Part shown: piece after piece, positions 122 through 64,000 of the stretch
How the letters are laid out: every line of letters begins with the position of its first letter
How positions within the stretch are numbered: the first letter of the stretch is position 1
NCBI GenBank assembly: GCA_030680805.1
Contig: JAUXUK010000089.1
Span: 1-64,000 of the forward strand
Direction: 5' to 3'
Source: Sulfuritalea sp.
GTDB taxonomy: Bacteria; Pseudomonadota; Gammaproteobacteria; Burkholderiales; Rhodocyclaceae
DNA length: 64,000 bases
Notes under the pieces: generated by a model
What the model saw: the letters and a program-made list of their open reading frames with translations, nothing else
Databases searched by the model: none
Told to the model about the DNA's origin: nothing
Program-made: the position numbers and the translations under genes

Positions 122-147
122 AAAGTCGGCGATGGCGACACTGCGGT
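122..147 (+). repeat. Dispersed 26-bp motif, copy 1 (intergenic)
   Basis: 23 of 26 bases match the window-wide motif with core GTCGGCGCTGGCGACACGG. This copy lies between the rRNA terminator and the operator of the first toxin-antitoxin locus. Confidence 0.7.
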
Positions 148-157
148 GGTTTATTCG

Positions 158-187
158 ATGCTATTATGTGTGCGTTAAATAGCATCA
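158..187. promoter_or_regulatory. Palindromic operator of the Phd/YefM-RelE locus
   Basis: A perfect 9-bp inverted repeat, GATGCTATT at 158-166 and AATAGCATC at 179-187, lies in an AT-rich stretch 35 bases before the antitoxin start. Type II antitoxins of this family repress their own promoter through such palindromes, so an autoregulatory operator is the natural reading. This is inferred from position and symmetry. Confidence 0.6.
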
Positions 188-221
188 TTAAATACATCAG
201 ATAGCTTCTGGCGGAGATACC

Positions 222-467
222 ATGGATACCATCTTTACCAATATGACGGTCAGCGTCACCGAGTTGAAGCGTAATTTCGCGGGCATTATCAAACAGGCCG
301 AGGAAAACCCGGTAGCAATACTCAACCACAATCGACCCGAGGCGTATCTCTTGCCGGCGGCTCACTACGAGCGGCTCATGGCTTACCTGGAAGACCTGGA
401 AGATGCGCAACTGGTGCATGAGCGCGCCAACGGTCCCTTCGTCGAGGTGAGAGTGGATGAGCTCTAA
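222..467 (+). CDS. Type II antitoxin, Phd/YefM family
   Basis: This 81-residue protein starts MDTIFTNMTVSVTELKRNFA and carries the Phd/YefM N-terminal DNA-binding segment (SVTELKRNFAGIIKQAEE) with the typical NRPEAYLLPAAHYERL motif in the middle. The acidic C-terminal tail is expected to wrap the toxin. It overlaps the downstream toxin gene by 11 bases, which implies translational coupling. It would neutralise the RelE-like toxin and repress the shared promoter through the palindrome at 158-187. A second in-frame ATG at 243 is possible; the first has GGAG in front (GGCGGAGATACCATG) and is preferred. Confidence 0.9.
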   Translation: MDTIFTNMTVSVTELKRNFAGIIKQAEENPVAILNHNRPEAYLLPAAHYERLMAYLEDLEDAQLVHERANGPFVEVRVDEL

Positions 468-762
468 GCTGCGCTTCCACGAACTGGCACTGGCAGAGTG
501 GAAACGACTCGATGGCAGCGTGCGCGAGCCACTCAAGAAAAAGCTGGAAGAGCGACTGGACAACCCTCGCGTGCCTTCCGCCGCGCTGTCTGGCATGGCT
601 GATTGCTACAAGATCAAGCTTAGGCGGATCGGCTATCGACTGGTTTACCGTGTCGATGACGACGTAGTGTTTGTTACTGTGATCGGTGTCGGAAAACGGG
701 ACAGGCAAAAAGTCTACGAGCTTGCGCAATCGAGGCGGCGAACAGTCTTCCCGAAAGAGTAA
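457..762 (+). CDS. Type II toxin, RelE/ParE family
   Basis: The 101-residue product has the RelE-fold pattern: an N-terminal LRFHELALAEWKRLDGSV helix, a central KIKLRRIGYRLVYRVDDD strand pair and a C-terminal VFVTVIGVGKRDRQKVYELA segment. RelE toxins cleave mRNA in the ribosomal A site; the Arg/Lys-rich strands and the IGVGKRDR motif are what the family uses. It partners the Phd/YefM antitoxin with which it overlaps. The 3' end overlaps a dead-end minus-strand reading frame (714-848). Family assignment is firm; the exact target is inferred. Confidence 0.9.
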   Translation: MSSKLRFHELALAEWKRLDGSVREPLKKKLEERLDNPRVPSAALSGMADCYKIKLRRIGYRLVYRVDDDVVFVTVIGVGKRDRQKVYELAQSRRRTVFPKE

Positions 763-848
763 TCAACTCCCCGCGCCGTCCCGCCGGCGCCGACTATGTC
801 AAAAGAGTTTTCAGCGATGCCGCTACCGCCTTGCGGTCGGCGGCTCAT
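714..848 (-). other. Dead-end reading frame in the toxin position behind the orphan AbrB antitoxin
   Basis: The minus-strand antitoxin at 845-1072 ends in ATGA, where the ATG would start a coupled toxin gene. The frame that opens there has only 44 codons. It reads through a degenerate copy of the dispersed motif (about 772-797) into the reverse of the relE 3' end, and has no toxin similarity I can see. The toxin gene was probably lost or replaced by repeat-derived sequence. Confidence 0.35.
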
Positions 849-1072
849 AGCCCACGATAGGCCTCGTCATCCGCGGCGGAATCCCATTCGCACAGCGTAC
901 CTTCCACCGCTTGGGCGAACGCTATGTCGCGGGGGTTCGCGCGGGTGAGGCGAACCAGGCCATTTTCAATCTCGAAGGCAAGCACGTCACCCTGCTTGAT
1001 GCCAAGCGTAGTGCGTACCGCCAATGGAATCGTCGCCTGAAATTTTGACGTTACACGGGATACGGATGTCAT
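845..1072 (-). CDS. AbrB/SpoVT-type antitoxin, orphan
   Basis: The 75-residue protein has the swapped-hairpin AbrB DNA-binding core near its N-terminus (VTSKFQATIPLAVRTTLGIK, GDVLAFEIENG) and a short acidic tail ending DDEAYRGL, as in antitoxins of the MazE/VapB/PrlF kind. Family core positions normally read SKGQVTIP; here it is SKFQATIP. Its stop codon overlaps an ATG (ATGA), the usual junction to a toxin gene, but no toxin follows. No good ribosome-binding site is visible before the start. It may be a relic or may cross-act with neighbouring loci. Confidence 0.75.
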   Translation of the reverse strand: MTSVSRVTSKFQATIPLAVRTTLGIKQGDVLAFEIENGLVRLTRANPRDIAFAQAVEGTLCEWDSAADDEAYRGL

Positions 1073-1135
1073 TGATATGATCGGGTAACTATTTTGGAAT
1101 CCCCACCGCGCTGGAAACCGTGGTCTTGCGCCTAT

Positions 1136-3197: not shown

Positions 3198-3220
3198 ACG
3201 TCTGGTGTTTCATGTTCTCG

Positions 3221-3360
3221 AATCAAAGGGGCCAGGGTCGAATTAACTTCGTGCGACTGCCGAAAGTCGGCGCTGGCGACACGGCGACAGAATCAAAGGG
3301 GCCAGGGTCGAATTAACTTCGTGCGACTGCCGAAAGTCGGCGCTGGCGACACGGCGACAG
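3221..3360 (+). repeat. Two perfect 70-bp tandem units before the RAYT gene
   Basis: Bases 3221-3290 and 3291-3360 are identical. Each unit starts AATCAAAGGGGCCAGGGTCG, contains GAATTAACTTCG and ends with a copy of the dispersed motif (3263-3288 and 3333-3358, 25 of 26 matches). The AAAGGGGCCAGG part recurs inverted just after the transposase gene (CCTGGCCCCTTTT at 4165-4177). The arrangement resembles REP units around a RAYT gene. Confidence 0.9.
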
Positions 3361-4177
3361 GGTGCAGGTAGAAGCAAAGAACCTCCCCCATCCTTTGGGC
3401 GAAGCTCGGTTAATTCGCTAGACTCCTGCTCATGCCCCGTCGCCCCCGCATCCATCTTGCCGGACTTCCATTGCATATCGTCCAGCGCGGCCACAACCGC
3501 GAGGCTTGTTTCTTTGGGGAGGACGACTATCACACGTATCGCCACTGGCTGGGCGAAGCCCTCACGGCCAGTGCTTGCGCGCTGCATGCTTATGTGCAGA
3601 TGACCAATCATGTACATCTGCTGCTGACGCCGCCCGCCCCCGAAGCCGTTTCCCAGTTGGTCATGTCGCTGGGCCGACGTTACGTGCAGTACATCAACAA
3701 GACCTATCGTCGCACCGGCACATTGTGGGACAGTCGCTACAAGTCGTCGCTGGTCCAGGAAAATAACTATCTGTTGCTGTGCCAGCGTTACATCGAACTC
3801 AACCCGGTGCGCGCCGCGATGGTGGATGACCCCGCCCACTACCGCTGGAGCAGCTATCGGGCAAACGGGCTGGGGCAGACTGACCCTCTGCTTACACCCC
3901 ATCCGGTGTATTCCGCGCTGGGCGGCACCGAGGCGCTGCGCTTGGCCGCCTATCGCGCCCTGTTCCGGCCGGAACTGGACGCCGATGCGATCAGTGATAT
4001 CCGCATAGCCTTGGATCAGGGGCAACCGCTGGGCGATTCGCGATTCCTCGCCAGCATCGAACGGGCGACGGGGCAGCGGCGCGAAGTCAAGCTGCGTGGC
4101 CGACCACGAAAGCAGGCTGCGGCGTTAGTGGTGGAGAAGCAGCAACTTCCGCTAGAAATCTGAGCCTGGCCCCTTTT
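3291..4177 (+). mobile_element. Putative RAYT/REP element
   Basis: A single-domain Y1 transposase gene is bordered by short inverted sequences: AAAGGGGCCAGG on the left (3225 and 3295) and CCTGGCCCCTTT on the right (4165). The left side is duplicated as the 70-bp tandem. No target-site duplication is clear, as expected for HUH/Y1 enzymes. RAYTs are usually domesticated single-copy genes that act on dispersed REP palindromes; the dispersed motif in the left units makes it the candidate substrate. Boundaries are inferred. Confidence 0.55.
3432..4163 (+). CDS. REP-associated tyrosine transposase (RAYT), Y1 family
   Basis: The 243-residue protein has the Y1/HUH architecture: RIHLAGLPLHIVQRGHNREACFF at the N-terminus, the metal-binding HVH at residues 60-62 (MTNHVHLLLTP), the tyrosine-bearing helix GRRYVQYINKTYRRTGTLWD at about 81-100, and NPVRAAMVDDPAHYRWSSY at about 137. 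This pattern is that of TnpA_REP proteins rather than insertion-sequence TnpA, because it includes the GTLWDSRYK motif and the basic C-terminal tail (RGRPRKQ). It would nick single-stranded REP-like hairpins. All catalytic residues appear intact. Flanking repeats at 3221-3360 and 4165-4177 support the assignment. Confidence 0.9.
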   Translation: MPRRPRIHLAGLPLHIVQRGHNREACFFGEDDYHTYRHWLGEALTASACALHAYVQMTNHVHLLLTPPAPEAVSQLVMSLGRRYVQYINKTYRRTGTLWDSRYKSSLVQENNYLLLCQRYIELNPVRAAMVDDPAHYRWSSYRANGLGQTDPLLTPHPVYSALGGTEALRLAAYRALFRPELDADAISDIRIALDQGQPLGDSRFLASIERATGQRREVKLRGRPRKQAAALVVEKQQLPLEI

Positions 4178-4984: not shown

Positions 4985-7156
<2,172 letters not shown>

Positions 7157-11866: not shown

Positions 11867-12862
11867 ATGCGCTGGCTGCTGCTTGCCCTATTCATCGCCG
11901 TATCGCCAGCGCCGACTTTTGCCCAGATCGGCGAAGAAGTCCTGCCGCCGGTGTTTGTCGAAACCCTGCTCGAATTGCCCGACGATGCGGCGCAGGCGGC
12001 CAAGTCGGGCAAGCGCCTGCTGCTGTATTTCGGCCAGGTGGGTTGCCCCTACTGCAAGGAACTGATGCAGACCAGCTTCACGCAGAAGACCATCGTCGAC
12101 AAGACCGCAAAGCATTTCCTGCCGATCGCCTTCAACCTGTTCGGCGACCGCGAAGTCACCTGGTTCGACGGCAAGGTACGCAGCGAAAAGGAATTCGCCA
12201 AATTTCTCAAGGTGCAGTTCACGCCCACGCTGTTGTTGCTCGACGAGAAGGGCGCCATCATCGCGCGCATCAACGGCTATTACCCGCCACATCGATTTTC
12301 GGCGGCACTGGACTATTCGGTGAAGCGGCTGGAAAACAAGCTGCCGTTTGCCGAGCACATGAAAGCCGTGCCGCAAACCGGCGCCAGCGCCACGCTTCAC
12401 GAGCAGCCCTTTTTCATGAAGCCGCCCTTGAACCTTGCCCGCAAGCGGGGCGACAAGCCGCTGGCCGTGCTGTTCGAGTCGCGCCACTGCGCGCCCTGCG
12501 ACGAGTTGCACCAGGAAGGCTTCAAGCGCGACAAGACGCTGGCGGCGATTTCCAGGCTGGATGTCGCGCGCCTTTCGCTGTCGGGCCGCGATGTCCTGAC
12601 CACGCCGGACGGGCGCAGCAGCAATGCCGAAGCCTGGAGCAAGCAACTGGGGATCAGCTACACGCCGAGCGTGGTGTTCTTCGATGACCAGGGCAAGGAG
12701 GTATTCCGCCTCGAGGCCTACGTGCGCCCGTTCCACTTCACGTCGTCCTTCGAGTACGTCGCCAGCGGCGCCTATCGCAAGGAGCCGGAATTCCAGCGCT
12801 TCCTGCAGAACAAGGCCGAGCACATGAAAGACACCGGCGAGAAACTGGAACTCTGGAAATAA
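11867..12862 (+). CDS. Periplasmic protein with two thioredoxin-like domains
   Basis: The 331-residue protein begins with a signal peptide (MRWLLLALFIAVSPAPTFAQ). Domain 1 (about 35-160) has YFGQVGCPYCKELMQTSF with Cys60-Pro-Tyr-Cys63, and FTPTLLLLDEKG with the cis-Pro. Domain 2 (about 190-310) has FESRHCAPCDELHQEGF (Cys208, Cys211) and YTPSVVFFDDQGKEVFRLE. It resembles SoxW/DsbE-like periplasmic thiol proteins and may reduce or oxidise exported proteins, perhaps cytochromes. The start at 11867 has GGGGGA upstream; the longer frame would translate the repeat. The signal peptide itself contains a copy of the dispersed 26-bp motif. Confidence 0.8.
   Translation: MRWLLLALFIAVSPAPTFAQIGEEVLPPVFVETLLELPDDAAQAAKSGKRLLLYFGQVGCPYCKELMQTSFTQKTIVDKTAKHFLPIAFNLFGDREVTWFDGKVRSEKEFAKFLKVQFTPTLLLLDEKGAIIARINGYYPPHRFSAALDYSVKRLENKLPFAEHMKAVPQTGASATLHEQPFFMKPPLNLARKRGDKPLAVLFESRHCAPCDELHQEGFKRDKTLAAISRLDVARLSLSGRDVLTTPDGRSSNAEAWSKQLGISYTPSVVFFDDQGKEVFRLEAYVRPFHFTSSFEYVASGAYRKEPEFQRFLQNKAEHMKDTGEKLELWK
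11895..11920 (-). repeat. Dispersed 26-bp motif, copy in a signal peptide
   Basis: 25 of 26 matches on the minus strand. It encodes the VSPAPTF end of the signal peptide of the thioredoxin-like protein. Confidence 0.85.
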
Positions 12863-18833: not shown

Positions 18834-19946
18834 CTAGCTCCCGACGCTATCGACCCTCCCGGCCAAGGCGAGCGGCAGGGTTACCCGCAGTGAAACGCCG
18901 CCGCCGGATTCCGGACTGGAGATGTCCAGCGAGCCGCCGTGCAGTTCGACAATGCGCTTGACGATGGAAAGGCCCAGCCCGCTGCCCGAAGCGGATGAAA
19001 AGTCGGCGCTGGCGCCACGGCGAAAGCGCTGCTGTACGGCATCGAGTTCGGTCGCGGGAATGCCCCTGCCGTCATCGTTGACCGTGAGCACCGCCTGCTG
19101 GCCGTGCCGCAGGATGCCGACTTCGATTTGCGATGCTCCGGAGTGGCGCAGGGCGTTGTCCACCAGGTTGCGCAGCATTGCCTGCAGCAGCGCGTCATCG
19201 CCGCGCACCCGCGCATCGCCGTCGGCGAGCACGAGTTCGCAGTGACGCTCGATGGCGTCCCCGGCGCTCATGGCCAGCACCTCTTCGGCAATCGGCCGCA
19301 GCGCCACGACCTGCATCGGGTGCGCCGTGTCGGCATCCAGCCGCGCCAGGGTCAGCAGCTGCGCCACCAGATGCGTGGCGCGGTCGCAGCCGACGAGGAT
19401 TTGAGTCAGCGCATGCTGTCGTTCCGCGGCGTCGATCGAGGCCAGCGCCACCTGTGCCTGCGCCTTCAGCGCGGCCAGCGGCGTGCGCAGTTCATGGGCG
19501 GCATCGGCGGTGAAGCGGCGCTCGTTTTCGAGGGCGCGCATGATGTCGGCGAACAGGCTGTTGAGCCTGGCCACCAGTGGTCGGACTTCGGCGGGCAGGG
19601 TTTCGACGGGCAGCGGGTCGAGCCGGTCCGGTGCCCGTTCGGCGACATCGCGCGCGAGTTGGCGCAAGGGGCCCAGCGCAAAGCCGATGGCAACGACCAG
19701 CAGCAGCGCCAGCGCGGGCAGTGCATAGAGCATCGGCTTGAGCAGGTGCTCGGCGATCTCTCCGGCCACCTCGTTGCGTTCCTTGGCCATGTGGGCAGCC
19801 GTGGTGCTCGGCGGGTGGGCCAGGAGTTCTTCCAGTTCGTGGCGGGCCTCGCGCCAGGTGACGAAGGCCGTCAACAACCAGACCAGGGCGACCGCCAGCA
19901 AGGTCAGCCCGACCAAGCGGGTGCGCAGCGAGAGCGGAGGCTTCAT
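18834..19946 (-). CDS. Sensor histidine kinase, QseC/PmrB type
   Basis: The 370-residue protein has a first membrane helix (about 10-30), a short periplasmic loop, a second helix (about 73-93), a HAMP region, HisKA (RRFTADAAHELRTPLAALKAQ, phosphorylated His) and HATPase_c (NLVDNALRHSG, NDDGRGIP, GSGLGLSIVKRIVELHGG). It overlaps the response-regulator gene by four bases. Between the N and G boxes, RFRRGASADFSSASGSG is encoded by a copy of the dispersed 26-bp motif (18998-19023). It is next to the cytochrome genes 20595-22019 and probably senses a signal related to them, as such two-component pairs do in other SHP clusters. Confidence 0.93.
   Translation of the reverse strand: MKPPLSLRTRLVGLTLLAVALVWLLTAFVTWREARHELEELLAHPPSTTAAHMAKERNEVAGEIAEHLLKPMLYALPALALLLVVAIGFALGPLRQLARDVAERAPDRLDPLPVETLPAEVRPLVARLNSLFADIMRALENERRFTADAAHELRTPLAALKAQAQVALASIDAAERQHALTQILVGCDRATHLVAQLLTLARLDADTAHPMQVVALRPIAEEVLAMSAGDAIERHCELVLADGDARVRGDDALLQAMLRNLVDNALRHSGASQIEVGILRHGQQAVLTVNDDGRGIPATELDAVQQRFRRGASADFSSASGSGLGLSIVKRIVELHGGSLDISSPESGGGVSLRVTLPLALAGRVDSVGS
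18998..19023 (+). repeat. Dispersed 26-bp motif, copy in histidine kinase gene
   Basis: 25 of 26 matches, on the strand opposite to the gene. It encodes part of RRGASADF in the ATP-lid linker. Confidence 0.85.
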
Positions 19947-21160: not shown

Positions 21161-21625
21161 TCACTTGGGAATCTTGATTGAACGTTCGTTGTAGTCGCCT
21201 GCCGCCGCCTGCGTATGGCAGGCGGTGCAGTTGGCCGGGCTCTTGATCGAGGCGCGCTGCCAGGTTGCCGTGGCGACCTCGCGATGTTTCTTCTCGAAGC
21301 GCGCGGTTTCGGTGATGCGCAGCAGCGGCTTGCCTTGGGCGTCGCGCGTGTCCCCCGTCTTGCGGCCGCCGGAATGGGCGACCAAAAAGTCGGCGATGGC
21401 GATACGGCGTTTTTCATCGATGCTGGCATCGGAGCCGAAATGCTTCGACAAGCCGCTCATCACGGCGCGCCATGAATTGGCGTCGAGCATCTGCGGCGGA
21501 TAGGCCATGTGGCAGGAGGCGCATTCCTCCTCGAAGGCGGCGTTCTTCGGCAGGCTGTAGTTGTCGGCGTGGGCTGGCAGGGCAAGGGTGGCAAGCAGAA
21601 CGGGCAGGGCGATGCGAAGTTTCAT
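21161..21625 (-). CDS. Di-haem cytochrome c, DHC family
   Basis: The 154-residue protein has a signal peptide (MKLRIALPVLLATLALPAHA) and two haem-binding motifs, CASCH near residue 36 and CTACH near 136, the spacing of the DHC family found next to SHP. It should carry electrons in the periplasm between the cytochrome b561 and SHP. The segment KRRIAIADFLVAHSG is encoded by a copy of the dispersed motif (21385-21410), which lies in a region that is conserved helix in this family. The gene is separated by 13 bases from SHP. Confidence 0.9.
   Translation of the reverse strand: MKLRIALPVLLATLALPAHADNYSLPKNAAFEEECASCHMAYPPQMLDANSWRAVMSGLSKHFGSDASIDEKRRIAIADFLVAHSGGRKTGDTRDAQGKPLLRITETARFEKKHREVATATWQRASIKSPANCTACHTQAAAGDYNERSIKIPK
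21385..21410 (+). repeat. Dispersed 26-bp motif, copy in DHC gene
   Basis: 23 of 26 matches; it encodes RIAIADFL on the minus strand. Confidence 0.65.
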
Positions 21626-27947: not shown

Positions 27948-29660
27948 ATGACCGACAAGCCTTCGCAACACCGCCTGCGCTATGGCGAATTCCTCAGCGC
28001 CGTGCGCGTCAAGCAGCGCCGCGTCAGCTACAAGGACGTGCATGCCGACGCGGGGCGCAAACCCCGTCCCGGCAGCCTGCGCCTGATCGACGTGCACCGG
28101 CTGCTGACACCCTATGTCAGCGTGCGCTTCCTGGACCAGTTGCGCGCGGTGGTGCCGCTGGCCGTGTTCCTCGCCCTGTTCCAGATCGTCGCGCTGCGCG
28201 CCGACGTTCAGGAAGGCGAACTGATCGCCTTCGGCATGATCGCGGTGATGGTGGGGCTGATGCTGTTCATGGATGGCGTCAGGTATGGGCTGATGCCATT
28301 TTCGGAGAGCATCGGCTTCAATCTGCCCAACCGCGGGACACCGGCCGTGGTGCTCGGTTTTGCATTCCTTCTCGGCGGCATCGCGACCTTCGCCGAGCCG
28401 GCCATCGGCGCGTTGCGGGCGGCGGGCAGCGGTGTCGATCCGTTGCGCGCGCCCTGGCTGCACCTGCTGCTGACCCGCTACCCCGACCGGCTGGTATTGG
28501 CGGTCGGCATCGGCGTCGGCCTTGCCGTGGTGGTCGGCATGCTGCGCTATTTCTTCGGCTGGCGCATGAAGACCCTGGTGATCGCGACCCTGATTCCCTG
28601 CCTGGCGCTGACCGCCTATGCCGGCTTCGATCCGCGCCTGGCGCCAATCATCGGCCTGGCCTGGGATTGCGGCGCCATTACCACCGGGCCGGTGACGGTG
28701 CCGCTGGTGCTGGCGCTGGGCATCGGCGTTGCCGCCGCCGCCGGCCAGGAGGACAACCCGCTGGCCGGCTTCGGTATCGTCACCCTGGCCTCGCTCTTCC
28801 CCGCCTTTGCGGTGATCCTGGTCGGCATCGGCCTGGTCGCCGAGGTGCCCGATCCGGCCGCCCTGCCGCAAATAGTCGGCGCTGGCGACACGGCGGCGTG
28901 GTGGGAGCAGACGCCTGTCGCCGAATTTGTCGCGGCCGTGCGCGCCATCGGCCCGCTGATTCTGCTGCTCTGGCTGGTGCAGCGCTTCGTGGTGGGCGAG
29001 GCCGTCAAGCAGCGCAACATCATTGGCTACGGAGTGGTGGTAGCGGTACTGGGCATGGCGCTGTTCAATCTCGGCCTCAGCGTCGGCCTGATTCCCCTCG
29101 GCAACCAGGCCGGCGCCACCGTGCCGGTGGCGTTCAGCACGGGCGCTGACGGTGCCGCGCTCTATTCCTACCCGGTCGGCATCGGCTTGGCGCTGGTTTT
29201 TGCGATCATCCTGGGGTACGGGGCAACGGTGGCCGAGCCGGCGCTGAATGCCATGGGCGTGACGGTGGAGAATCTCACCGACGGCGCATTTCCCAAGCAG
29301 TTGCTGATCCAGGCCGTGGCCGTGGGCGTGGCCCTGGGCATCGCGCTGGGCGTGGCGAAGATCGTATTCGGCTGGTCGATGCTGCCCTTGCTGCTGGGCG
29401 GCTATGCCTTGGCATTGGCGGGCACGCTGTGGTCCAGCGAAGAGTATGTGGCGCTGGCGTGGGACAGCGCCGGGGTCACCACCGGGCCGGTGACGGTACC
29501 GCTGGTGCTGGCGCTCGGCCTTGGCTTGGGGCAGGCAGTGGGTGCGGCGGAAGGCTTCGGCATCCTCGCCATGGCGTCCTTAGGGCCGATCATCTCGGTA
29601 TTGCTGGTGGGTGTCTGGATACGCAGCCGCGCGGCGATCGCCGCGAGCGAACAGGGGTAG
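27948..29660 (+). CDS. DUF1538 polytopic membrane protein
   Basis: The 570-residue protein has about twelve membrane helices and a clear internal duplication: GLAWDCGAITTGPVTVPLVL at about 237 and ALAWDSAGVTTGPVTVPLVL at about 502. The repeated (D)(S/C)xxxTTGPVT loop probably lines a transport path, as in inverted- or tandem-repeat transporters. Its role is unknown; DUF1538 proteins are often co-encoded with PII-like proteins, as here, which suggests a transporter gated by a nucleotide or metabolite. The start at 27948 lacks a strong ribosome-binding site. A copy of the dispersed motif (28871-28896) encodes QIVGAGDTAA in a loop. Confidence 0.88.
   Translation: MTDKPSQHRLRYGEFLSAVRVKQRRVSYKDVHADAGRKPRPGSLRLIDVHRLLTPYVSVRFLDQLRAVVPLAVFLALFQIVALRADVQEGELIAFGMIAVMVGLMLFMDGVRYGLMPFSESIGFNLPNRGTPAVVLGFAFLLGGIATFAEPAIGALRAAGSGVDPLRAPWLHLLLTRYPDRLVLAVGIGVGLAVVVGMLRYFFGWRMKTLVIATLIPCLALTAYAGFDPRLAPIIGLAWDCGAITTGPVTVPLVLALGIGVAAAAGQEDNPLAGFGIVTLASLFPAFAVILVGIGLVAEVPDPAALPQIVGAGDTAAWWEQTPVAEFVAAVRAIGPLILLLWLVQRFVVGEAVKQRNIIGYGVVVAVLGMALFNLGLSVGLIPLGNQAGATVPVAFSTGADGAALYSYPVGIGLALVFAIILGYGATVAEPALNAMGVTVENLTDGAFPKQLLIQAVAVGVALGIALGVAKIVFGWSMLPLLLGGYALALAGTLWSSEEYVALAWDSAGVTTGPVTVPLVLALGLGLGQAVGAAEGFGILAMASLGPIISVLLVGVWIRSRAAIAASEQG
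28871..28896 (+). repeat. Dispersed 26-bp motif, copy in DUF1538 gene
   Basis: 24 of 26 matches; it encodes IVGAGDTAA in a loop between the two duplicated halves. Confidence 0.8.
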
Positions 29661-38454: not shown

Positions 38455-38870
38455 ATGACGGGATGGGTGGTACGCACAAGCGCTTGATCACCCGCGCGCA
38501 GAAGGCACGTCATCGACAAGTCTTCGCACGAAGACTATGCTGCCGGGAAATTGCATTTGCCATAAATGCAAAGGGAAGGGCCAAGAAATGCCTGAATATG
38601 GCTACTCTGACCTGACAATGTGCTTCCGAATGACTCGCAATCTTCCGCGGCATTCGTCATTTCGCCGCACAGGTTTTTGAATCGCCGTCTCACTAGCGCC
38701 GACTTTTTATACCGGCCGCTCGATCCGCGATAATTCCCCTCCGCAACTCCTCACAAAGCACATTCGATTTGCTTTGTATCTCTATTGATTTTATTTGATA
38801 TTTTAATCGCGAAATTCCTCCGGTTTCGCGCCTAAGCCCTTGTTGCACTTGAAAAAATTGTGGCTATTTC
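38455..38870. other. 416-base gap before the mra promoter
   Basis: No gene is visible. It contains an 18-bp palindrome (AGTCTTCGCACGAAGACT at 38519-38536), possibly the mqsRA terminator, one copy of the dispersed motif on the minus strand (38682-38707), and an AT-rich stretch (38755-38810) that may act as an UP element for the dcw promoter. Confidence 0.5.
38682..38707 (-). repeat. Dispersed 26-bp motif, intergenic copy before the dcw cluster
   Basis: 23 of 26 matches on the minus strand. Confidence 0.65.
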
Positions 38871-42622: not shown

Positions 42623-44110
42623 ATGACCCTCCTCGAACAGCTCGAACGAAAGGGCGTTGTGGCCAAGCGCCTGACCGCCGACTCGCGCCGCGTGCAGCCG
42701 GGCGACGTCTTCGTTGCCTTCCCCGGCGCGCAGCTTGACGGTCGCGACTTCATCGCGCAGGCGGTGGCAAACGGTGCGGTAGCGGTAATCGCCGAGGCGG
42801 GAAGAAAAGTCGGCGCTGGCGATACGGCGATTGTCGAAGTGGAAGGATTGGCGGCGCTCTCCGGGGAAATCGCTCACCTCGTCCATGGCCGCCCCTCGGA
42901 AAAACTCTGGCTTGCCGGCGTCACCGGCACCAATGGCAAGACCTCCGTATCGCAATGGATCGCGCAGGCAATGAACGCGTTGCAGCACCGGTGTGCCGTG
43001 ATCGGAACGCTGGGCAATGGTTTCCTTGAGTCGCTGAACGAAAGTCCCAACACCACGCCGGATGCCCTGACCCTGCATGCTGAATTGGCCGCCTACGTCG
43101 CGCAGGGTGCGGAGGCCTGCGCGATGGAAGTGTCATCCATCGGGCTCGATCAGGGGCGCGCCAACGGTGCGGCCTTCGATGTCGCCATCTTCACCAACCT
43201 GACGCGCGATCACCTCGAGTATCACGGCAGCATGGCGGCTTACGCGGCGGCCAAGGAAAAGTTGTTCTTCGCCCCCGGTCTCTCTGCGGCGGTGCTGAAT
43301 CTGGACGATCCCTTTGGCGCCGAACTTGCCGTCAGGCTCGGAGGCCGTCTGCACGTCATCGGCTACACGCTCGGTGCGGCCGGCGGCGGCGAGGACGTGC
43401 TGCGCGCGGAAAGCCTGGGCATGAGTGCCGCCGGCGTCGAGTTCGATCTGCGTGGCGTGCATTTCACCGCGCCCGTGGTGGGCCGCTTCAATGTTTCCAA
43501 CCTGCTCGCGGTGATCGGCGCCCTGCTGGCGCGCAATGAACGCCTTGAGGACATCGCGGTCGCCTTGCGCGGCATCCAGCCGCCGCCGGGGCGGATGCAG
43601 GCGCTGGGCGGTGTGAATGAACCGCTGGTCGTGGTGGACTACGCCCATACGCCGGACGCACTGGAAAAGGCGCTCGGCGTGCTGCGCGAAACCGCGACTG
43701 CGCGCGGCGGGCGGTTGGTCTGCGTCTTCGGTTGCGGCGGCGATCGCGATCCCGGCAAGCGGCCGCAGATGGGGGCGATTGCCGAGCGTCTGGCAGATCA
43801 GCTTGTGCTGACCAGCGACAACCCGCGCAATGAAAACCCGCAAAGCATCATTGACGGCGTGCTCACCGGCATGAAAAGGCCGCCGACCGTCCAGATCGAC
43901 CGCAGCCTGGCCATCGCCGGCGCAGTGGCGGATGCCGATCCGCGCGACGTGATCCTGCTCGCCGGCAAGGGCCACGAGCCCTATCAGGAGATCGCCGGCG
44001 TGCGGCATCCCTTCTCCGACCTCGCCGTCGCAAAGTCGGCGCTTGCCGGCCGGCGAAGCCGAAACCCCGGCAGACAGAGTCCGACACGGCGAGGATCGCG
44101 GCGATCATGA
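42623..44110 (+). CDS. murE: UDP-MurNAc-L-Ala-D-Glu:meso-diaminopimelate ligase
   Basis: The 495-residue protein has the Mur-ligase domains: DSRRVQPGDVFVAFPG, the P loop GVTGTNGKTSVSQWIAQAM, TNLTRDHLEYHGSMAAY, and the DNPRNENP motif (about residue 405) that selects meso-diaminopimelate over lysine. The frame is open from an ATG at 42515, so the inserted element could be translated as a 36-residue N-terminal extension; the ATG at 42623 with GGAGG upstream is preferred. A copy of the dispersed motif codes for KVGAGDTAI in a loop. The last 25 residues (after AKSALAGRRSRN) look repeat-derived. Confidence 0.95.
   Translation: MTLLEQLERKGVVAKRLTADSRRVQPGDVFVAFPGAQLDGRDFIAQAVANGAVAVIAEAGRKVGAGDTAIVEVEGLAALSGEIAHLVHGRPSEKLWLAGVTGTNGKTSVSQWIAQAMNALQHRCAVIGTLGNGFLESLNESPNTTPDALTLHAELAAYVAQGAEACAMEVSSIGLDQGRANGAAFDVAIFTNLTRDHLEYHGSMAAYAAAKEKLFFAPGLSAAVLNLDDPFGAELAVRLGGRLHVIGYTLGAAGGGEDVLRAESLGMSAAGVEFDLRGVHFTAPVVGRFNVSNLLAVIGALLARNERLEDIAVALRGIQPPPGRMQALGGVNEPLVVVDYAHTPDALEKALGVLRETATARGGRLVCVFGCGGDRDPGKRPQMGAIAERLADQLVLTSDNPRNENPQSIIDGVLTGMKRPPTVQIDRSLAIAGAVADADPRDVILLAGKGHEPYQEIAGVRHPFSDLAVAKSALAGRRSRNPGRQSPTRRGSRRS
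42805..42830 (+). repeat. Dispersed 26-bp motif, copy in murE
   Basis: 25 of 26 matches; it encodes KVGAGDTAI in the variable loop before the ligase P loop. Confidence 0.85.
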
Positions 44111-46912: not shown

Positions 46913-48517
46913 GTGAAACTAGACGGCAAGCACGTTCTCGTCCTCGGCCTCGGTGAATCGGGGCTGGCCAGCGCGCTCTGGTGCGTGCGGCAGGGTGCGC
47001 GGGTGCGCGTGGCGGATACCAGAGCGGCACCGCCGTATCTGGGCGAACTGCAACGCCGTGTCACCAGCGCCGAGTTTTTTTCGGGCGAGTTCGACAAGGC
47101 CTTGCTCGATGGCATCGACCTGCTGGTCCTGTCGCCCGGGCTCTCGGGCGGATTGATGGTGGTGATTCACGCGCGCGCCGCCGGCATTCCGGTGGTCGGC
47201 GAGATCGAATTGTTTGCCCGGGCGCTGCGCAGCCTGAACTCCGGTATGGCAGCCCCGGCCCCGGTACTGGCCATCACCGGCACCAACGGCAAGACCACCA
47301 CCACCGCATTGGCCGGACACTTGCTGCGCGCCACCGGCAAGACTGTCGGCGTCGCGGGAAATATTTCGCCGGCAGCCTTGACGGCCCTGATGGATGCGCA
47401 GGATGCCAATGCGCTGCCCCAGATCTGGGTGCTGGAACTGTCGAGTTTCCAGCTGGAGACCACCGAGACCTTGTATCCGGCCGCGGCGACGGTCCTCAAC
47501 ATCTCCGACGATCATCTCGATCGCTACATCGATCTCAATGAGTATGCGTCAGCCAAGGCGCGAATTTTTCAAAGTGCCGAGGGCGCGCCGGGCGTGCAGG
47601 TGCTCAATCGTGCCGACGCGCGCGTGCGCCGGATGGCGCTGGCCGATCGCCACATCATCAGCTTCGGTCTTGATGCGCCCGCCGCCAGCGAGGACTTCGG
47701 CCTGCGCATGAATCGGGGCGAGGCGTGGATCGTGCAGGGCGATCGCTTCCTGCTGCCGGTCTCCGAACTGCCGCTGGCCGGCTTGCACAATGCGGCCAAT
47801 GCGATGGCGGCGCTGGCTTTGTGCGTAAGCCTCGGCTTCGATGCAAATGCCTTGCTGCCGGCCTTGCGCAGCTTCCGCGGCTTGCCGCATCGCGTGGAAA
47901 AAGTCGCTGAGCTGGACGGCGTGACCTGGTACGACGATTCCAAGGGCACCAATGTCGGCGCCACGGTCGCCGCGCTGAATGGTATTGGCGGCCAACTGGC
48001 CGCCCTGAATAGTCGCCTCCCTCCCCCGGGGAGGGAGGTCGGGAGGGAGGGTTCGTCATTGACGTCTTGCGATCCGAAGGATCGCAAGATCGTGGTGATT
48101 CTTGGGGGTGATGGAAAAGGACAGGACTTTTCTCCACTCGGGAAGGCCGTGGCGAAGCATGCCCGTGCCGCGGTGCTGATCGGGCGCGATGGTCCGCTGA
48201 TCGAAAAGGCCATCGTCGCCTCAAGGGTGGCGATCGAAACCGCTAGCGACATGGACGATGCCGTACATCGCGCTCGCGCGTTGGCGCAACCGGGTGATGC
48301 TGTCCTGCTGTCGCCGGCGTGCGCCAGCTTCGACATGTTCCGCAACTATGAGCATCGGGCGCAGGTCTTCATTGCCGCCGTCCATGCGCTGGAGGGCGCC
48401 GGCCGCCGGGCCGACCCAAGGCAGGCGCAGCCAGATACACGGAATTTCGCCGTCGGCGAAATGAACCAGGAGCGCCCCCTTCCTCGGGAAGGGGGAGGGG
48501 GGGAAGGCAAATCATGA
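46913..48517 (+). CDS. murD: UDP-MurNAc-L-alanine:D-glutamate ligase with in-frame repeat insertions
   Basis: The 534-residue protein (GTG start) has the MurD core: [18 protein letters not shown] loop [77 protein letters not shown] and [15 protein letters not shown]. Relatives run directly from ..AALNG(IGG) to (K)[10 protein letters not shown]; here about 25 extra residues ([14 protein letters not shown] and on) lie between, encoded by two GC-rich hairpins (48013-48088). The last 45 residues are also atypical and end [10 protein letters not shown] in another repeat. The frame is intact, so an active but padded enzyme is likely. Confidence 0.93.
48013..48088 (+). repeat. Two GC-rich hairpins inserted in frame within murD
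   Basis: CCTCCCTCCCC/GGGGAGGGAGG (48016-48038) and CTTGCGATCC/GGATCGCAAG (48066-48088) lie inside the murD coding region between the [10 protein letters not shown] and VVILGGDG blocks, which are nearly adjacent in other MurD proteins. Confidence 0.85.
48476..48507 (+). repeat. Palindromic element at the murD 3' end
   Basis: The same CCCCCTTCC/GGAAGGGGG stem as before murE (48476-48496) followed by AGGGGGGGAAGG. It is translated as the last residues of MurD, and its GGGGAAGG serves as the ftsW ribosome-binding site. Confidence 0.85.
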
Positions 48518-49810: not shown

Positions 49811-50866
49811 ATGAAAACCCTTCTCGTCATGGCCGGCGGCACGGGCGGGCACATCATGCCGGGCCTCGCCGTGGCCGAACACCTGAAGGCCCAGGGCTGG
49901 AAGATCGCCTGGATGGGCCATCCGGATGGCATGGAAGCCAGGCTGACCGCGGGGCGTGGTTACGAGATGGCCTGGGTGCATTTTTCCGCATTGCGCGGCA
50001 AGGGCCTGCTGCGCAAGCTCATGCTGCCTTTCAATCTGCTGCGAGGTTTCGTCGAGGCGTGGTCGCAACTCAAGCGCATCCGGCCCGACGTGGTGTTGGG
50101 CATGGGCGGTTACATCAGCTTTCCCGGCGGCATGATGGCCTCGCTGCAGGGCATTCCGCTGGTGCTGCACGAGCAGAATTCGGTGGCGGGCCTGGCCAAC
50201 AAAGTGCTGGCGGGTGTCGCTGATCGGATCCTTACCGGTTTCCCCGAGGTACTGAAGAACGGCCACTGGGTGGGCAATCCGGTACGCCCGGAAATCGCCG
50301 TGTTGCCAGCGCCGACTTTTCGTTATGAACAGCACAGCGGTCCGCTGCGTGTGCTGGTGGTGGGCGGCAGCCTCGGCGCGCAGGCCTTGAACGCCGCCAT
50401 GCCGAAAGCGCTGGCGCTGATTGCGGAAGACGAGCGGCCGCTGGTGGTGCATCAGGCCGGCGAGAAGCATCTGCCGATGCTGAAAAGTTTCTACATTTCG
50501 GCTGGCGTCAATGCCGATTGCGTGGCCTTCGTCAATGACATGGCCGGCGCCTACGACTGGGCCGATCTGGTGATCTGCCGCGCCGGCGCGTTGACCGTGG
50601 CGGAACTCGCCGCCGCCGGCGTCGCCAGCCTGCTGGTGCCTTTCCCGCACGCGGTGGATGACCACCAGACGTCGAATGCGCGCTTCCTCAGCAATGCCGG
50701 CGCGGCGATCCTGCTGCCTCAAGGCGAGCTGACGCCGGCGCGGCTGGCCGAGATCAGGAACCTGTCGCGGAGCCAACTTGCACAAATGGCCGAGAAGGCC
50801 CGCGAGCTGGCGCGGCCCGACGCCACGGCCGTCGTTGCGCAGGCGTGCGTGGAACTTGCCAAATGA
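49811..50866 (+). CDS. murG: UDP-GlcNAc:lipid I transferase MurG
   Basis: The 351-residue GT-B enzyme has [68 protein letters not shown] and the UDP-binding [33 protein letters not shown]. It makes lipid II at the inner face of the membrane. A copy of the dispersed motif encodes LPAPTFRYE in the linker between the two Rossmann domains. Confidence 0.97.
50295..50320 (-). repeat. Dispersed 26-bp motif, copy in murG
   Basis: 25 of 26 matches; it encodes AVLPAPTF in the inter-domain linker. Confidence 0.85.
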
Positions 50867-50876: not shown

Positions 50877-52265
50877 ATGAAACACAAAGTCAAGCGCATC
50901 CACTTCGTCGGAATTGGCGGCTCGGGCATGTCCGGCATTGCCGAGGTGCTGGCGAACCAGGGCTTCGAGGTCAGCGGCTCCGATCTGAGCGAAAGCGCGA
51001 CGACGCGGCGGCTGGCGGCGCAGGGCATCCGCATTGCGATCGGCCACAGCGCGCAGAACGCTGCGACGGCGGACGCGGTCGTGGTGTCGACCGCCGTGCG
51101 CGAGGACAATCCGGAAGTGGTCATGGCGCGCGAGCGCCAGGTGCCGGTGGTGCCGCGGGCGCAGATGCTGGCGGAGCTGATGCGCATCAAGCAGGGCATC
51201 GCGATCGCCGGCACCCACGGCAAGACGACGACCACCAGCCTCGTCGCGAGTTGTCTGGCCGAGGGCGGCCTCGATCCGACTTTCGTCATCGGCGGCCGGC
51301 TGAATTCCGCGGGAGCGAACGCGAAACTGGGCAGCGGCGAATTCCTGGTGGCCGAGGCCGACGAGTCCGATGCTTCCTTCCTGTTCCTGTCGCCGGTGGT
51401 TTCGGTGGTGACCAACATCGACGCCGACCACATGGAAACCTACGGCCACGATTTCGGCCGACTCAAGCAGGCCTTCGTCGACTTCCTCCATCGCCTGCCC
51501 TTCTATGGCGTCGCCGTGGTTTGCGGCGACGATGCCAACGTGCGCGAGATCATGCCGCGCGTGGCGAAGCAGATCGTCACCTACGGCATCGACAGCGAAG
51601 TCAATTTCCGCGCCGAAGACGTGGTGGCCGACGGCGGCACCATGCGCTTCACCTGTGTGCGCACCAACGGCAACATCAGTCGTCTGCCGATCGTGCTCAA
51701 CCTGCCGGGGCGTCACAATGTGCTGAATGCGCTGGCCGCCATCGCGGTGGCAACGGAAGTCGGCGTTGGCGATACGGCGATCATCAAGGCGCTGGCCGAG
51801 TTTCGCGGTGTCGGCCGACGCTTCCAGCGCCACGGCGAGATCGCCTGTCCGGCAGGCGGCACATTTACCCTGGTCGACGACTATGGCCATCATCCGGTGG
51901 AGATGGCGGCGACGCTCGCGGCGGCGCGCGGCGCTTTCCCCGGCCGTCGCCTGGTGCTGGCCTTCCAGCCGCATCGCTACACGCGGACGCGGGACTGTTT
52001 CGAGGATTTCGTCAAGGTGCTGTGCGGAGTCGATGCCCTGTTGCTGGGCGAGGTGTATGCCGCCGGCGAGGCGCCGATCGTCGCCGCCGACAGCCGCACC
52101 CTGGTGCGCGCCTTGCGCATCGCCGGCAAGATCGAGCCGGTGTTCGTCGAAGACATCGCGACCCTGCCGGCGGCGATCCTGGCCGCGGTGCGCGACGGCG
52201 ACGTGGTAATCACCATGGGCGCGGGTTCGATCGGCGGCGTGCCCGGGAAGCTGGTCGATGGCTGA
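50877..52265 (+). CDS. murC: UDP-MurNAc:L-alanine ligase MurC
   Basis: The 462-residue protein has [19 protein letters not shown], the P loop [45 protein letters not shown] and [19 protein letters not shown]. It adds L-Ala to UDP-MurNAc. The start at 50877 has AAAGGCAG upstream; earlier codons overlap murG. A diverged copy of the dispersed motif encodes EVGVGDTAI at the position where relatives have ELxVxDAAI. Confidence 0.97.
51755..51780 (+). repeat. Dispersed 26-bp motif, copy in murC
   Basis: 22 of 26 matches; it encodes EVGVGDTAI. Part of this similarity may reflect protein conservation. Confidence 0.5.
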
Positions 52266-60018: not shown

Positions 60019-60104
60019 TGCATGGCCTTGCGGGGAGCCAGCGGCTCCTCGCATGCTAAAATCGCCGTTTCGCTTTTCCCGGTCGGTTCCCGGCCGCGTA
60101 CCCC

Positions 60105-62828
60105 ATGATCTCCGGCTTTTTGAAAAAGATTTTTGGCAGCCGCAATGACCGGCTGATCAAGCAGTATTCTCAGGCGGTCGCCCGCATCAATGCGCTCGAA
60201 GCGGCCATTTCGCCGCTGTCCGACGACGCGCTGAAGGCAAAGACCGAAGAGTTTCGCAGTCGTCATGCCCAGGGCGAGTCCCTCGACGCCTTGTTGCCCG
60301 AAGCCTTTGCCGTGGTGCGCGAGGCCAGCCGTCGCGTGCTCGGCATGCGCCATTTCGACATGCAAATGGTCGGCGGCATGGTGCTGCATTACGGCAAGAT
60401 CGCCGAGATGCGCACCGGCGAAGGCAAGACGCTGACGGCGACGCTGGCCGTGTATCTGAATGCGATTCCCGGCACGGGCGTGCATCTGATCACGGTCAAT
60501 GACTACCTGGCAAAGCGCGATGCGGAGTGGATGGGGCGCATCTATCGTTTTCTGGGGATGAGCGTCGGCGTCAATCTTTCGCAAATGCCGCATGATGAAA
60601 AGCAGGCTGCCTATGCCTCCGATATCACCTACGGCACCAACAACGAATTCGGCTTCGACTACCTGCGCGACAACATGGTGTATGCGGCCAATGAGCGCGT
60701 GCAGCGCGGGCTAAGCTACGCCATCGTCGACGAAGTGGATTCGATCCTGATCGATGAGGCGCGCACGCCGTTGATCATCTCGGGCCAGGCCGAAGACCAT
60801 ACCGAACTGTATCTGCGCATGAATGCCGTGCCGCCGTTGCTGACTCGCGGCGAAGCAGCCAAGGGCGAGGGCGAGGTGGATACCGGCGATTTCACGGTCG
60901 ATCTCAAATCGCACCAGGTGCTGCTGACGGAAGCCGGGCACGAAAAGGCCGAGGAGATTCTTGCCCGCCTGGGCATGCTGGCCGAGGGCAGCAGCCTCTA
61001 CGAGCCGGCCAACATCCTGCTGATCCACCATCTGTATGCGGCCTTGCGCGCGAACAACCTGTACTTCCGCGACCAGCAGTACGTGGTGCAGGAAGGCGAA
61101 GTGGTCATCGTCGACGAGTTCACCGGGCGGCTGATGTCCGGTCGGCGCTGGTCGGACGGCCTGCACCAGGCCGTCGAAGCCAAGGAAGGCGTGTCGATCC
61201 AGGCCGAGAACCAGACGCTCGCCTCGATCACCTTCCAGAACTATTTCCGCATGTACGGCAAGCTTGCCGGCATGACCGGCACGGCGGATACCGAAGCCTA
61301 CGAGTTCCACCAGATCTACGGCCTGGAAACGGTGGTCATCCCCACCAACAAGCCGATGATCCGCAAGGACGAGAACGACCAGATCTATCGCACCGCGCCG
61401 GAAAAGCATGCCGCAATCATCGCCGACATCCGCGCCTGTCATCAACGGGGGCAGCCGGTGCTGGTCGGCACCACCTCGATCGAAAATTCCGAACTGCTCT
61501 CCGACTTGCTGCACAAGGAGAAGCTGCCGCATCAGGTGCTCAACGCCAAGCAGCACGCGCGCGAGGCCGAGATCGTGGCCGAGGCCGGACGCCCCGGCAT
61601 GATCACCATCGCCACCAACATGGCCGGCCGCGGCACCGACATCGTGCTCGGCGGCAATATCGAAAAGCCAACCGGCGCCATCCGCGACGACGAATCCCTG
61701 AGCGCGGACGAGAAGGCAAAGCGCACTGCAGAACTCAAGGCGGAATGGCAGAAGGTGCATGAGCAGGTGCTGGCCGCCGGCGGCCTGCATATCATCGGTT
61801 CCGAACGCCACGAATCGCGCCGGATCGACAACCAGCTGCGCGGTCGTTCGGGTCGCCAGGGCGACCCGGGTTCTTCGCGCTTCTATCTGGCGCTGGATGA
61901 CCCGCTGCTCAAAATTTTCGCCGGCGAACGCCTCAACGCGATCATGGTGCGCCTCAAGATGCCCGAGGGCGAGGCCATCGAGCATCCGCTGGTGAGCCGT
62001 TCGCTCGAATCGGCGCAGCGCAAGGTCGAGCAGCGCAACTTCGATATTCGCAAGCAGTTGCTCGAATACGACGACGTGTCCAACGACCAGCGCAAGGTGA
62101 TCTACCAGCAGCGCAACGAACTGCTCGACAGCGACGACATAGCCGAGACCATCACGGCCATGCGCCAGGGCCAGATCCACGATACTTTCCGCCTCTACAT
62201 TCCGGCCGAAAGCGTCGAGGAACAGTGGGACGTCAGCGGTCTGGAAACCGCGCTGGCGGCCGAACTCCATCTCAAACTTCCGGTGGGCGAATGGATCAAG
62301 ACCGACCCGCAGCTCGGCGACGACGACATCCTGAAGCGCCTGCTGGATGCCGGTGACGCGGCTTATGCGGAAAAGACCGGCAATGTCGATGCTACGGCCT
62401 GGGCCGGCTTCGAGCGCAACGTCATGCTGCAAAGCCTGGACACGCACTGGCGCGAACACCTCTCGGCACTCGATCACCTGCGTCAGGGCATTCATCTGCG
62501 CGGCTATGCGCAGAAAAATCCCAAGCAGGAATACAAGCGCGAGGCATTCGAGCTCTTCGAGGGCTTGCTGCAAACCGTGCGCAGCGAAGTCTCCAAACTG
62601 TTGTTGACCGTTGAAGTTCGCAGCGAGGAGCAGATTGAAGAGGTGGAAGCCCCGCCACAGCTCGAGAACGTCCAGTACCACCACGCCGACTATGACGAAG
62701 CGCTCGGCGCCGCGACGCCCAAGCCGGCGCAGCCGGTCGAGCGGCACACGCCCAAGGTCGGGCGCAACGATCCCTGTCCTTGCGGCAGCGGCAAGAAGTA
62801 CAAGCATTGCCACGGCAAGCTGAGTTGA
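60105..62828 (+). CDS. secA: Preprotein translocase ATPase SecA
   Basis: The 907-residue protein has the Walker A motif [17 protein letters not shown] at about 101, [19 protein letters not shown] at about 205, [15 protein letters not shown] and [18 protein letters not shown] in the second nucleotide-binding domain. It ends with the zinc-binding [17 protein letters not shown] tail that contacts SecB and ribosomes. The hairpin GGAGCCAGCGGCTCC (about 60038-60052) in the upstream gap may end the M23 transcript. Confidence 0.98.
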
Positions 62829-63039
62829 GAGCTTGTGAATAAATCTACTGCGCGTGCCGGATCGGGGCTTGGGCGGTGCTCTTCCACGGCCGGCTTTGCA
62901 CAGCCGGCCGGCTGCGGCGGCGCGAAGCATGCTTCGCGAAACCCCGCCTCGCCCTCATGTACAGAGACGTACATTCCGGTAGCTGCGCTCCGGCCGCACC
63001 CCGCTGCGGCCCGCTCGCTACGATTTCTTCACAAGCTCT
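62828..63039. repeat. 212-bp inverted-repeat element between secA and mtnA
   Basis: AGAGCTTGTGAATAAATC (62828-62845) and GATTTCTTCACAAGCTCT (63022-63039) are 18-bp inverted arms with one mismatch. Inside lies another hairpin, GGCCGGC...GCCGGCC (about 62891-62913). A half-copy (AGAGCTTGTGAAATTTC) follows lutC at about 11724. The element ends eight bases before the probable mtnA start. Confidence 0.8.
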
Positions 63040-63046
63040 GACACCG

Positions 63047-64000
63047 GTGTCGACGCGCTGGCCAACATTGATCGAGGATGGCAACGGCGTTTTGATCCTC
63101 GATCAGACGCGCTTGCCACGCGAGGCGGTCATGCTGCGCTTGGCGTCACTCGACGATGCGGCCCATGCCATCCGCGTCATGCAGGTGCGCGGTGCGCCGC
63201 TGATCGGCGCGACGGCAGCCTACGGCGTGGCGCTCGGCCTGGCCGGCGATACCAGTGATGCACACCTCGACCATGTGATCGACACCCTGGCCGCAACGCG
63301 ACCGACGGCGATCAATCTGCATTGGGCGCTGGACCGCATGCGCCGCGTGCTGCAAAACTCGGCGCTGGCGACACGGCGTGATCTGGCTTGGAGCGAGGCT
63401 CGCGCGATCGCGACGGAAGACAAAGCCGCCAATGCGGCGATCGGGCAACACGGACTCGCGCTGCTGCAGGCAAGACAGCAGAGCGGTCAGCCTATCAACA
63501 TCATGACCCACTGCAACGCGGGCCGACTGGCCACTGTCGATAACGGCACGGCAATTTCGCCGATTTATGCCGCGCATGCCGCGGGCTTGCCGGTGCATGT
63601 CTGGGTTTCCGAAACGCGGCCGCGCAACCAGGGCCTGCTCACCGCCTGGGAACTGCGCGAGGCCGGCGTGCCGCACACCCTGATCGCCGACAACGCCGCC
63701 GGATTGCTGATGATGCAGGGCAAGGTCGATCTGGTGATCGTCGGCGCCGATCGCATCGCCGCCAACGGCGACACGGCGAACAAGGTCGGCACCTATCTCA
63801 AGGCCCTCGCGGCGAAAGCGCATGGTGTGCCGTTCTACGTTGCGGCGCCGCTGTCGACCATCGATTTCGCCTGCCCCTCGGGGGCGGCGATCCCGATTGA
63901 AGAGCGCGCCGCCGAAGAACTCGGCGCCGGCGATACGCCGGTTGCCAATCCGGCCTTCGACGTGACGCCGGCAGGCTTGATCGGCGGCATTGTTTCCGAG
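63047..64000 (+). CDS. mtnA: Methylthioribose-1-phosphate isomerase, 5' part
   Basis: The reading frame runs off the window. It contains LILDQTRLPREAVMLRLASLDDAAHAIRVMQVRGAPLIGATAAYG, INIMTHCNAGRLATVDNGTAISPI (catalytic Cys) and IVGADRIAANGDTANKVGTY (catalytic Asp), diagnostic of MtnA in the methionine salvage pathway. The start is uncertain: GTG at 63047 gives a plausible N-terminus (VSTRWPTLIEDGNGVLILDQTR). A copy of the dispersed motif encodes QNSALATRRD in a variable linker. Confidence 0.93.
   Translation, partial: MSTRWPTLIEDGNGVLILDQTRLPREAVMLRLASLDDAAHAIRVMQVRGAPLIGATAAYGVALGLAGDTSDAHLDHVIDTLAATRPTAINLHWALDRMRRVLQNSALATRRDLAWSEARAIATEDKAANAAIGQHGLALLQARQQSGQPINIMTHCNAGRLATVDNGTAISPIYAAHAAGLPVHVWVSETRPRNQGLLTAWELREAGVPHTLIADNAAGLLMMQGKVDLVIVGADRIAANGDTANKVGTYLKALAAKAHGVPFYVAAPLSTIDFACPSGAAIPIEERAAEELGAGDTPVANPAFDVTPAGLIGGIVSE
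63354..63379 (+). repeat. Dispersed 26-bp motif, copy in mtnA
   Basis: 24 of 26 matches; it encodes NSALATRR, a different frame from the murE and DUF1538 copies. Confidence 0.8.

Follow-up and report, generated by a model that had tools for sequence, protein, structure and literature searches.

Why should one oriented sequence of about 25 bp recur, inside and between genes and on both strands, throughout a stretch of environmental bacterial DNA? The question is raised by the first 64,000 nucleotides of contig JAUXUK010000089.1 of Sulfuritalea sp. (assembly GCA_030680805.1; hereafter the window), in which a sequence-only reading had noticed a dispersed 26-bp motif. By comparing this sequence across related genomes, and by analogy with the DNA uptake sequences (DUS) of the Neisseriaceae and the uptake signal sequences (USS) of the Pasteurellaceae, 'self' tags by which these bacteria select free DNA for uptake, we conclude that the motif probably works as a DNA-uptake sequence in Sulfuritalea and related genera. 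It also seems fairly likely that it represents a third, independently evolved system of this kind, shared by Sulfuritalea and some seven related genera of environmental Betaproteobacteria. Such a system would have a GC-rich word of its own, ~25 bp long; one genus would contain at least one ongoing dialect switch, and several genomes would have lost the word. This reading is based on the abundance of the motif, its restriction to one clade, its lack of polarity, its A-rich 5' start, its excess between genes and in convergent gaps, the origin of copies by substitution, their absence from an acquired island and the existence of dialects.

Unless stated otherwise, a site is a match with at most three mismatches to the 19-base core GTCGGCGCTGGCGACACGG. 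By this measure the window contains 15 sites, compared with a mean of 0.10 and a maximum of 1 in 100 dinucleotide-preserving shuffles. The genome from which it comes (3.14 Mb in 107 contigs, 86% complete) contains 470, 231 forward and 239 reverse, compared with 6 (3 + 3) for the pattern read backwards, and the original estimate that the copies lie far beyond chance is borne out in both. All 13 copies first listed as strong are present, with cores starting 3-4 bases past the positions given for the 26-mer; one further copy, at 47056 on the reverse strand with 2 mismatches, had been omitted. As for the weaker copies, the one near 772(-) stands, with 3 core mismatches, whereas those at 44035 and 63920 have 5 and 4 mismatches and fall outside the limit. 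The spacing is about one site per 5-7 kb over both strands, and a scan of the window against Rfam gave 0 matches.

The anatomy of the motif was drawn from 146 sites in 40 stretches (800 kb) of G002, a genome assembled as a single contig. Their consensus, RARAGTCGGCGYTGGCGRNACGGCGA, amounts to ~35 bits over 27 positions, a value inflated at the 19 core positions because the sites were selected by those positions. It describes an oriented sequence of ~25 bp with an A-rich 5' end, a rigid GTCGGCGYTGGCG, two loose bases and ACGGCGA. Positions outside the search word were not used for site selection, yet they too are conserved: A at -1 (94%) and at -3 (67%) on the 5' side, and C at +19 (92%), G at +20 (95%) and A at +21 (60%) on the 3' side. 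Beyond about -5 and +23 there is almost no conservation, either in a set of 72 sites or in the 146 sites of G002, and the motif therefore does not mark one end of something longer. The imperfect palindrome GTCG...CGAC, earlier taken for the core of the motif, was also considered as the functional unit and rejected, since the left arm is kept at 97-100% whereas in the right arm the A is kept at only 49% and the C at 38%.

Clear enrichment in the motif is taxonomically confined. All 24 other genomes examined of the window's own genus (g1 in our survey, taken to be Sulfuritalea) carry between 76 and 761 sites, the lowest counts being those of G017 (76) and G022 (196), while 16 genomes, one from each of 16 other families, are at background level with 0-31 sites (controls, 0-13). 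Within the family, 297 genomes from 68 genera were surveyed, and eight genera are clearly enriched: g1, g24 (670 sites in G047), g35 (159-688, but 6 in G279), g54 (714 in G077), g62 (288-562), g80 (274-424), g61 (134 in G084) and g30 (81 in G053). Genus g39 is marginal, with 57 and 2 sites in its genomes. Most of the remaining family genomes have some matches, up to about 50-55, because the core is GC-rich. The exact 23-mer AGTCGGCGCTGGCGACACGGCGA is present in at least 108 named database stretches; among the matches listed, most titles name Sulfuritalea, Rhodocyclaceae or Rhodocyclales, while Sulfurisoma sediminicola, Sulfurisoma sp., Sulfurimicrobium sp., Zoogloea sp. and Burkholderiaceae appear once each and some titles are more broadly beta-proteobacterial. 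The NCBI taxonomy places Sulfuritalea under Sterolibacteriaceae.

Three genomes, G279 in g35 and G017 and G022 in g1, have few or reduced copies beside motif-rich congeners, which makes them useful for a receptor search; G062, G122 and G292 also belong to the copy-poor genomes. From the distribution over genera, we infer that the copies in G017 were lost rather than never present. A k-mer search of 287 kb of this genome for a replacement word gave only weak excesses, the strongest being 13 occurrences against 3.5 expected. Copies are also found in IMG/VR viral contigs, where 34 stretches (L143-L176) carry an exact 20-mer and 339 kb contain 61 near-matches, six of them within the 13 kb of L165; these may be host stretches, prophages or phages that have adopted the tag.

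A second property of the motif is that it exists in dialects, which were counted as the exact GTCGGCGYTGGYGRNACGGY followed by either G or A at +20. The G form predominates in G002 (314 G/11 A), G000 (214/10), G005 (356/23), G077 (317/42) and G185 (111/32). Genus g35 includes genomes almost wholly of the A form, namely G118 (2/173), G195 (2/218), G316 (8/177) and G058 (3/67), as well as G264 (53/199), G305 (17/50), the mixed genomes G163 (145/204) and G222 (158/111), and G245, which is mostly G (246/24). G175 of genus g62 is also mixed (16/19). Neither exact word occurs at any of the loose sites of G084 (134) and G053 (81), and only 3 of the 159 sites found by the loose search in G292 have one, so that further dialects or decay are likely in these three genomes. 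Local function can hardly account for a single-base difference repeated over hundreds of scattered sites; a change in whatever reads the sequence would have this effect, as has been proposed for the dialects of DUS (PMC3630211).

The way in which copies arise was addressed by comparing the mur gene cluster of the window with those of 20 other genomes, in which the places occupied within mur genes are conserved across several genera. Of the other motif-bearing genomes, 13 share the position of the murC copy (window 51759), which is absent from four outgroups and from G017, G062 and G279. The 21 rows of this alignment are all gapless, the outgroups differ at 8-11 core bases, and the amino acids of MurC change along with the motif. 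In murG the motif is likewise ungapped in 21 rows; the copies of five motif-bearing genomes are weaker there (4-6 mismatches). Thus, on the question of whether copies were inserted or evolved in place, those in murC and murG arose by substitution. The murD alignment has indels just upstream of the motif in some rows, and one genome has an insert inside it; the N-terminal region of murE is rich in indels. These two places therefore do not discriminate between insertion and substitution.

Among genomes that carry it, the motif is conserved more strongly than its flanks; in the same-genus G017 it appears eroded. Among motif genomes, pairwise identity is 0.866 in the 24 motif bases and 0.745 in the flanks, over 180 pairs from 21 query sites that are largely the same mur places viewed from four genomes, loci chosen for the motif being excluded; 142 of these pairs keep the core at no more than three mismatches, and 39 are gapped in the motif columns, by up to 48 bases. 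Lower identity is to be expected in motif-free genomes, given that the query sites were picked for their match to the consensus, and the motif and flank values are 0.687 and 0.776 against the same-genus G017 (23 pairs, 1 with the core kept), 0.608 and 0.745 against G062 (10 pairs), 0.676 and 0.695 against G279 (14 pairs) and 0.607 and 0.688 against outgroups (38 pairs). Viewed from G185, there is no excess of change in G017 (0.694 in the motif, 0.665 in the flanks, 3 pairs). Gaps fall in the motif columns of 36 of the 85 BLAST pairs to G017, G279, G062 and the outgroups, the largest being 11 bases, and none of the 85 shows a clean insertion of the whole motif.

Along the chromosome of G002, the sites are spread in a Poisson-like manner (variance/mean 0.94 per 20 kb over the 40 stretches) and do not cluster around the origin or the terminus, which from GC skew we place near the contig ends and near 1.85 Mb, respectively. 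Nor is there a strand bias (leading strand 69 sites, lagging strand 77; p=0.56). Site number tracks GC content (rho 0.43, p=0.005, 40 stretches). Two of the stretches have zero sites, L199 and L187 (G002:C1:1900001-1920000); the latter is low in GC and, among the 7 of its 14 called genes that were examined, encodes TraU, TraN, HipA and McrBC homologues, the content of a conjugative and defence island. L187 is therefore one recently acquired island that lacks the motif. With respect to genes, coding sequence makes up 89.2% of this DNA and holds 104 of the 146 sites (71%), with 41 intergenic and 1 partial, an intergenic enrichment of about 2.6-fold; since the gene calls were home-made and missed some genes, the share of intergenic sites is an upper bound. 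Of 40 intergenic sites, 12 lie in convergent gaps, which account for 11.5% of the intergenic DNA (p=0.0013).

These properties are those that would be expected of an uptake sequence, which we consider the best of the three possibilities first put forward for the motif, the others being a REP (repetitive extragenic palindromic) substrate and a segregation sequence. In the proposed pathway, the motif in free DNA would be bound at the cell surface by a receptor, for which a type IV minor pilin is the most plausible candidate; retraction of the pilus would follow, after which ComEA and ComEC would take one strand in. Recombination would then swap local alleles, and biased uptake would favour those nearer the consensus, so that the motif would build up genome-wide without any local function. 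A shift in receptor specificity would lead to rewriting of the dialect, and loss of the receptor or of competence to decay of the copies.

The machinery for such a pathway is widespread. Among 60 genomes, ComEC is found in all 60 (59 over the cut-off), DprA in 58 and a pilin of the ComP_DUS type (PF16732) in 57, with and without the motif. N-methyl pilins are present in 12 of 12 genomes examined, among the matches listed, and a minor-pilin operon is present in the 12 genomes compared. A ~233-aa pilin (G002:C1:3148924) was tried as the receptor, being divergent in G017 and G279 when the pilins of eight genomes were compared, and failed over the 60: at E 1e-15 it has no match in 8, including the motif-rich G001, G010, G175 and G237, and it is matched at only 42-52% in the motif-rich G047, G204, G257 and G305, while the motif-poor G081, G106 and G145 have versions at 60-61%.

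The rejection of this pilin is one of several observations that weigh against an uptake function. No DprA match was found in the motif-rich G001 and G005, which have hundreds of copies, G005 being 99% complete. The three genomes that lack a ComP_DUS match (G175, G237 and G084, drafts that are 89-98% complete) all bear the motif, and ComEC, DprA and the ComP_DUS-type pilin occur in motif-free genomes and also in G017 and G279. The machinery is thus shared by genomes of both kinds, and no competence gene found explains the presence or the loss of the motif. Furthermore, the density in G002, ~190 sites per Mb, is below the counts given for Neisseriaceae (PMC3630211). Inverted +- pairs, which form frequent terminators in DUS and USS genomes, number only 2 among the 188 sites of G002 (at most four mismatches, 800 kb), and there are none in five other sets (the window, G118, G185, L035-L142 and the mur clusters). 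Finally, a similar picture could result from some other genome-wide drive that acts on a bound sequence.

Of the explanations that do not involve uptake, the one that survives best is that a dispersed protein, nucleoid-associated or chromosome-organising in role, binds the motif, which would be kept by selection place by place. SlmA and MatP are binders of a comparable kind, although here the action would be genome-wide. The conservation of places in mur genes between genera, the even spread over the whole chromosome and the absence of the motif from one acquired island all fit such a site. Selection acting site by site would, however, hardly yield a near-total one-base change of dialect such as that of G118, nor does it readily account for hundreds of mostly intragenic places being conserved for so long; the lack of strand bias and of clustering at the origin or terminus also speaks against it. 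It is the only rival left with weight and, with the dialect difference counting against it, we consider it unlikely.

Transposition offers another route to many copies. REP sequences, which are associated with RAYT (REP-associated tyrosine transposase) genes, are short dispersed repeats, and the window itself contains a Y1_Tnp gene of the RAYT type (3432-4163) with two identical 70-bp tandem units directly upstream (3220-3359). Each unit carries an exact copy of the core, at 3266-3284 in the first and 3336-3354 in the second, both on the forward strand. Because a 20-nt stretch, AAAGGGGCCAGGGTCGAATT, recurs inverted at 4157-4176 (85%), the gene resembles a RAYT-type element flanked by its ends. 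The intergenic enrichment of the motif would also agree with spread by insertion of a REP-like sequence or some other short mobile repeat, as would the copies that lie upstream of the Y1 domain, by 640-770 bases, at 3 of 12 other Y1 loci. Against this, none of the same 12 loci has the motif within ~420 bases upstream of the domain (one of them spans only 86 bases, and four come from motif-poor genomes), and several bear a terminal sequence of their own, of the GGGGxCAG type. Moreover, a Y1_Tnp match is lacking in the motif-rich G118, G139 and G077 and present in G150 and G106, which are at background level; the murC and murG copies, which arose by substitution, are gapless against motif-free orthologues, the motif shows no dependence on RAYT, and the flanks contain no longer shared element. 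Spread by insertion is thus very improbable, and the REP substrate first suggested is not supported.

KOPS (FtsK orienting polar sequences), Chi, matS and parS are short chromosomal motifs as well, and a short oriented word in high copy might be a polarity signal for replication or recombination (Chi, KOPS) or a terminus signal (matS). The motif has neither polarity nor regional clustering, as its near-equal division between the two strands and its even spread in G002 demonstrate; this leaves such a role scarcely tenable, and the earlier idea of a segregation sequence is, on the same grounds, not supported. A by-product of protein motifs and codon usage is the least credible of all, for although same-strand frame 0 is favoured (43 of the 104 coding sites) and nulls that keep the proteins of the 711 called genes of G002 still yield sites, with means of 22.1 when codons are redrawn and 25.7 when they are permuted within genes (20 sets each, maximum 30 in both), none of the 40 sets approaches the 104 observed, all six strand and frame classes are present, and the roughly 28% of sites called intergenic carry the same consensus, in keeping with the original view of a signal at the level of DNA rather than a protein feature.

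If the motif does serve for DNA uptake, its relationship to the known systems is one of resemblance in behaviour and not in sequence. DUS are present in hundreds to thousands of copies genome-wide and have lineage-specific dialects (PMC3630211). The present motif resembles them in both respects, and a pilin of the family of the DUS receptor, ComP, is found here, though not only in motif genomes. The sequences are unrelated, however, DUS having 10-12 bp as opposed to ~25 GC-rich bp here, and the present motif has fewer copies and few hairpin pairs. With the USS of Pasteurellaceae (core AAGTGCGGT; predicted receptor ComN/PpdA) it shares a rigid core, an A-rich 5' start and dialects (PMC1852404, PMC12616744). 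According to Kingsford et al., extended USS motifs start with adenines, and USS hairpins concentrate between convergent genes (PMC1852404), a location reminiscent of the convergent-gap excess described above. The USS differs in its core and in the class and habitat of its bearers, and both conserved blocks of the present motif are GC-rich; by eye there is a faint likeness between AAGT-CGG and AAGTGCGG. Read by eye, the consensus contains neither the Neisseriaceae word GCCGTCTGAA nor the Pasteurellaceae word AAGTGCGGT, as quoted in a 2026 terminator survey of thousands of genomes, which gives uptake sequences for Neisseriaceae and Pasteurellaceae (PMC13020248). In the open-access literature searched, to the extent that its text was available, no uptake sequence for Sulfuritalea or Rhodocyclaceae was found, only those of the two known families; the literal 19-mer is also absent from the literature searched, which agrees with the earlier statement that no family with this sequence had been described.

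A DNA-uptake function would have several consequences. The use of a different word by a third lineage would mean that such tags arise repeatedly, and would provide a fresh test of the molecular-drive explanation. The natural gradation of genomes, from full through mixed-dialect and eroded to motif-free, would be a resource for locating the receptor, and the evolution of uptake specificity and of the receptor could be tested by comparison. Also, gene exchange in these environmental bacteria would be channelled to their own kind.

The remaining copies in the window illustrate the variety of settings in which the core is found. Three are outside called genes, at 125-143 (+, 2 mismatches), at 776-794 (-, the weak copy with 3) and, between called genes, at 38685-38703 (-, 3 mismatches). 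Three others lie in genes whose profile matches are all under the cut-offs: 19002-19020 (+, 1 mismatch) in a reverse-strand gene resembling sensor histidine kinases by NCBIfam, 28875-28893 (+, exact) in a forward-strand gene at 27948-29660 with matches to the UmpA/UmpB antiporter subunits, and 33202-33220 (-, 2 mismatches) close to the 3' end of an NhaD-like called gene at 31875-33254 (+). The copies at 11898-11916 (-, 1 mismatch) and 21389-21407 (+, 2 mismatches) are within the called genes 11867-12862 (+) and 21161-21625 (-), respectively. Four are in the mur cluster, at 42809-42827 (+, 1 mismatch) in the 5' part of murE, as judged by the extent of the murE profile match, at 47056-47074 (-, 2 mismatches) in murD, at 50298-50316 (-, 1 mismatch) in murG and at 51759-51777 (+, 2 mismatches) in murC; the home-made gene caller missed murE and scored its copy as intergenic. 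The last, at 63358-63376 (+, 1 mismatch), is within mtnA, which encodes S-methyl-5-thioribose-1-phosphate isomerase.

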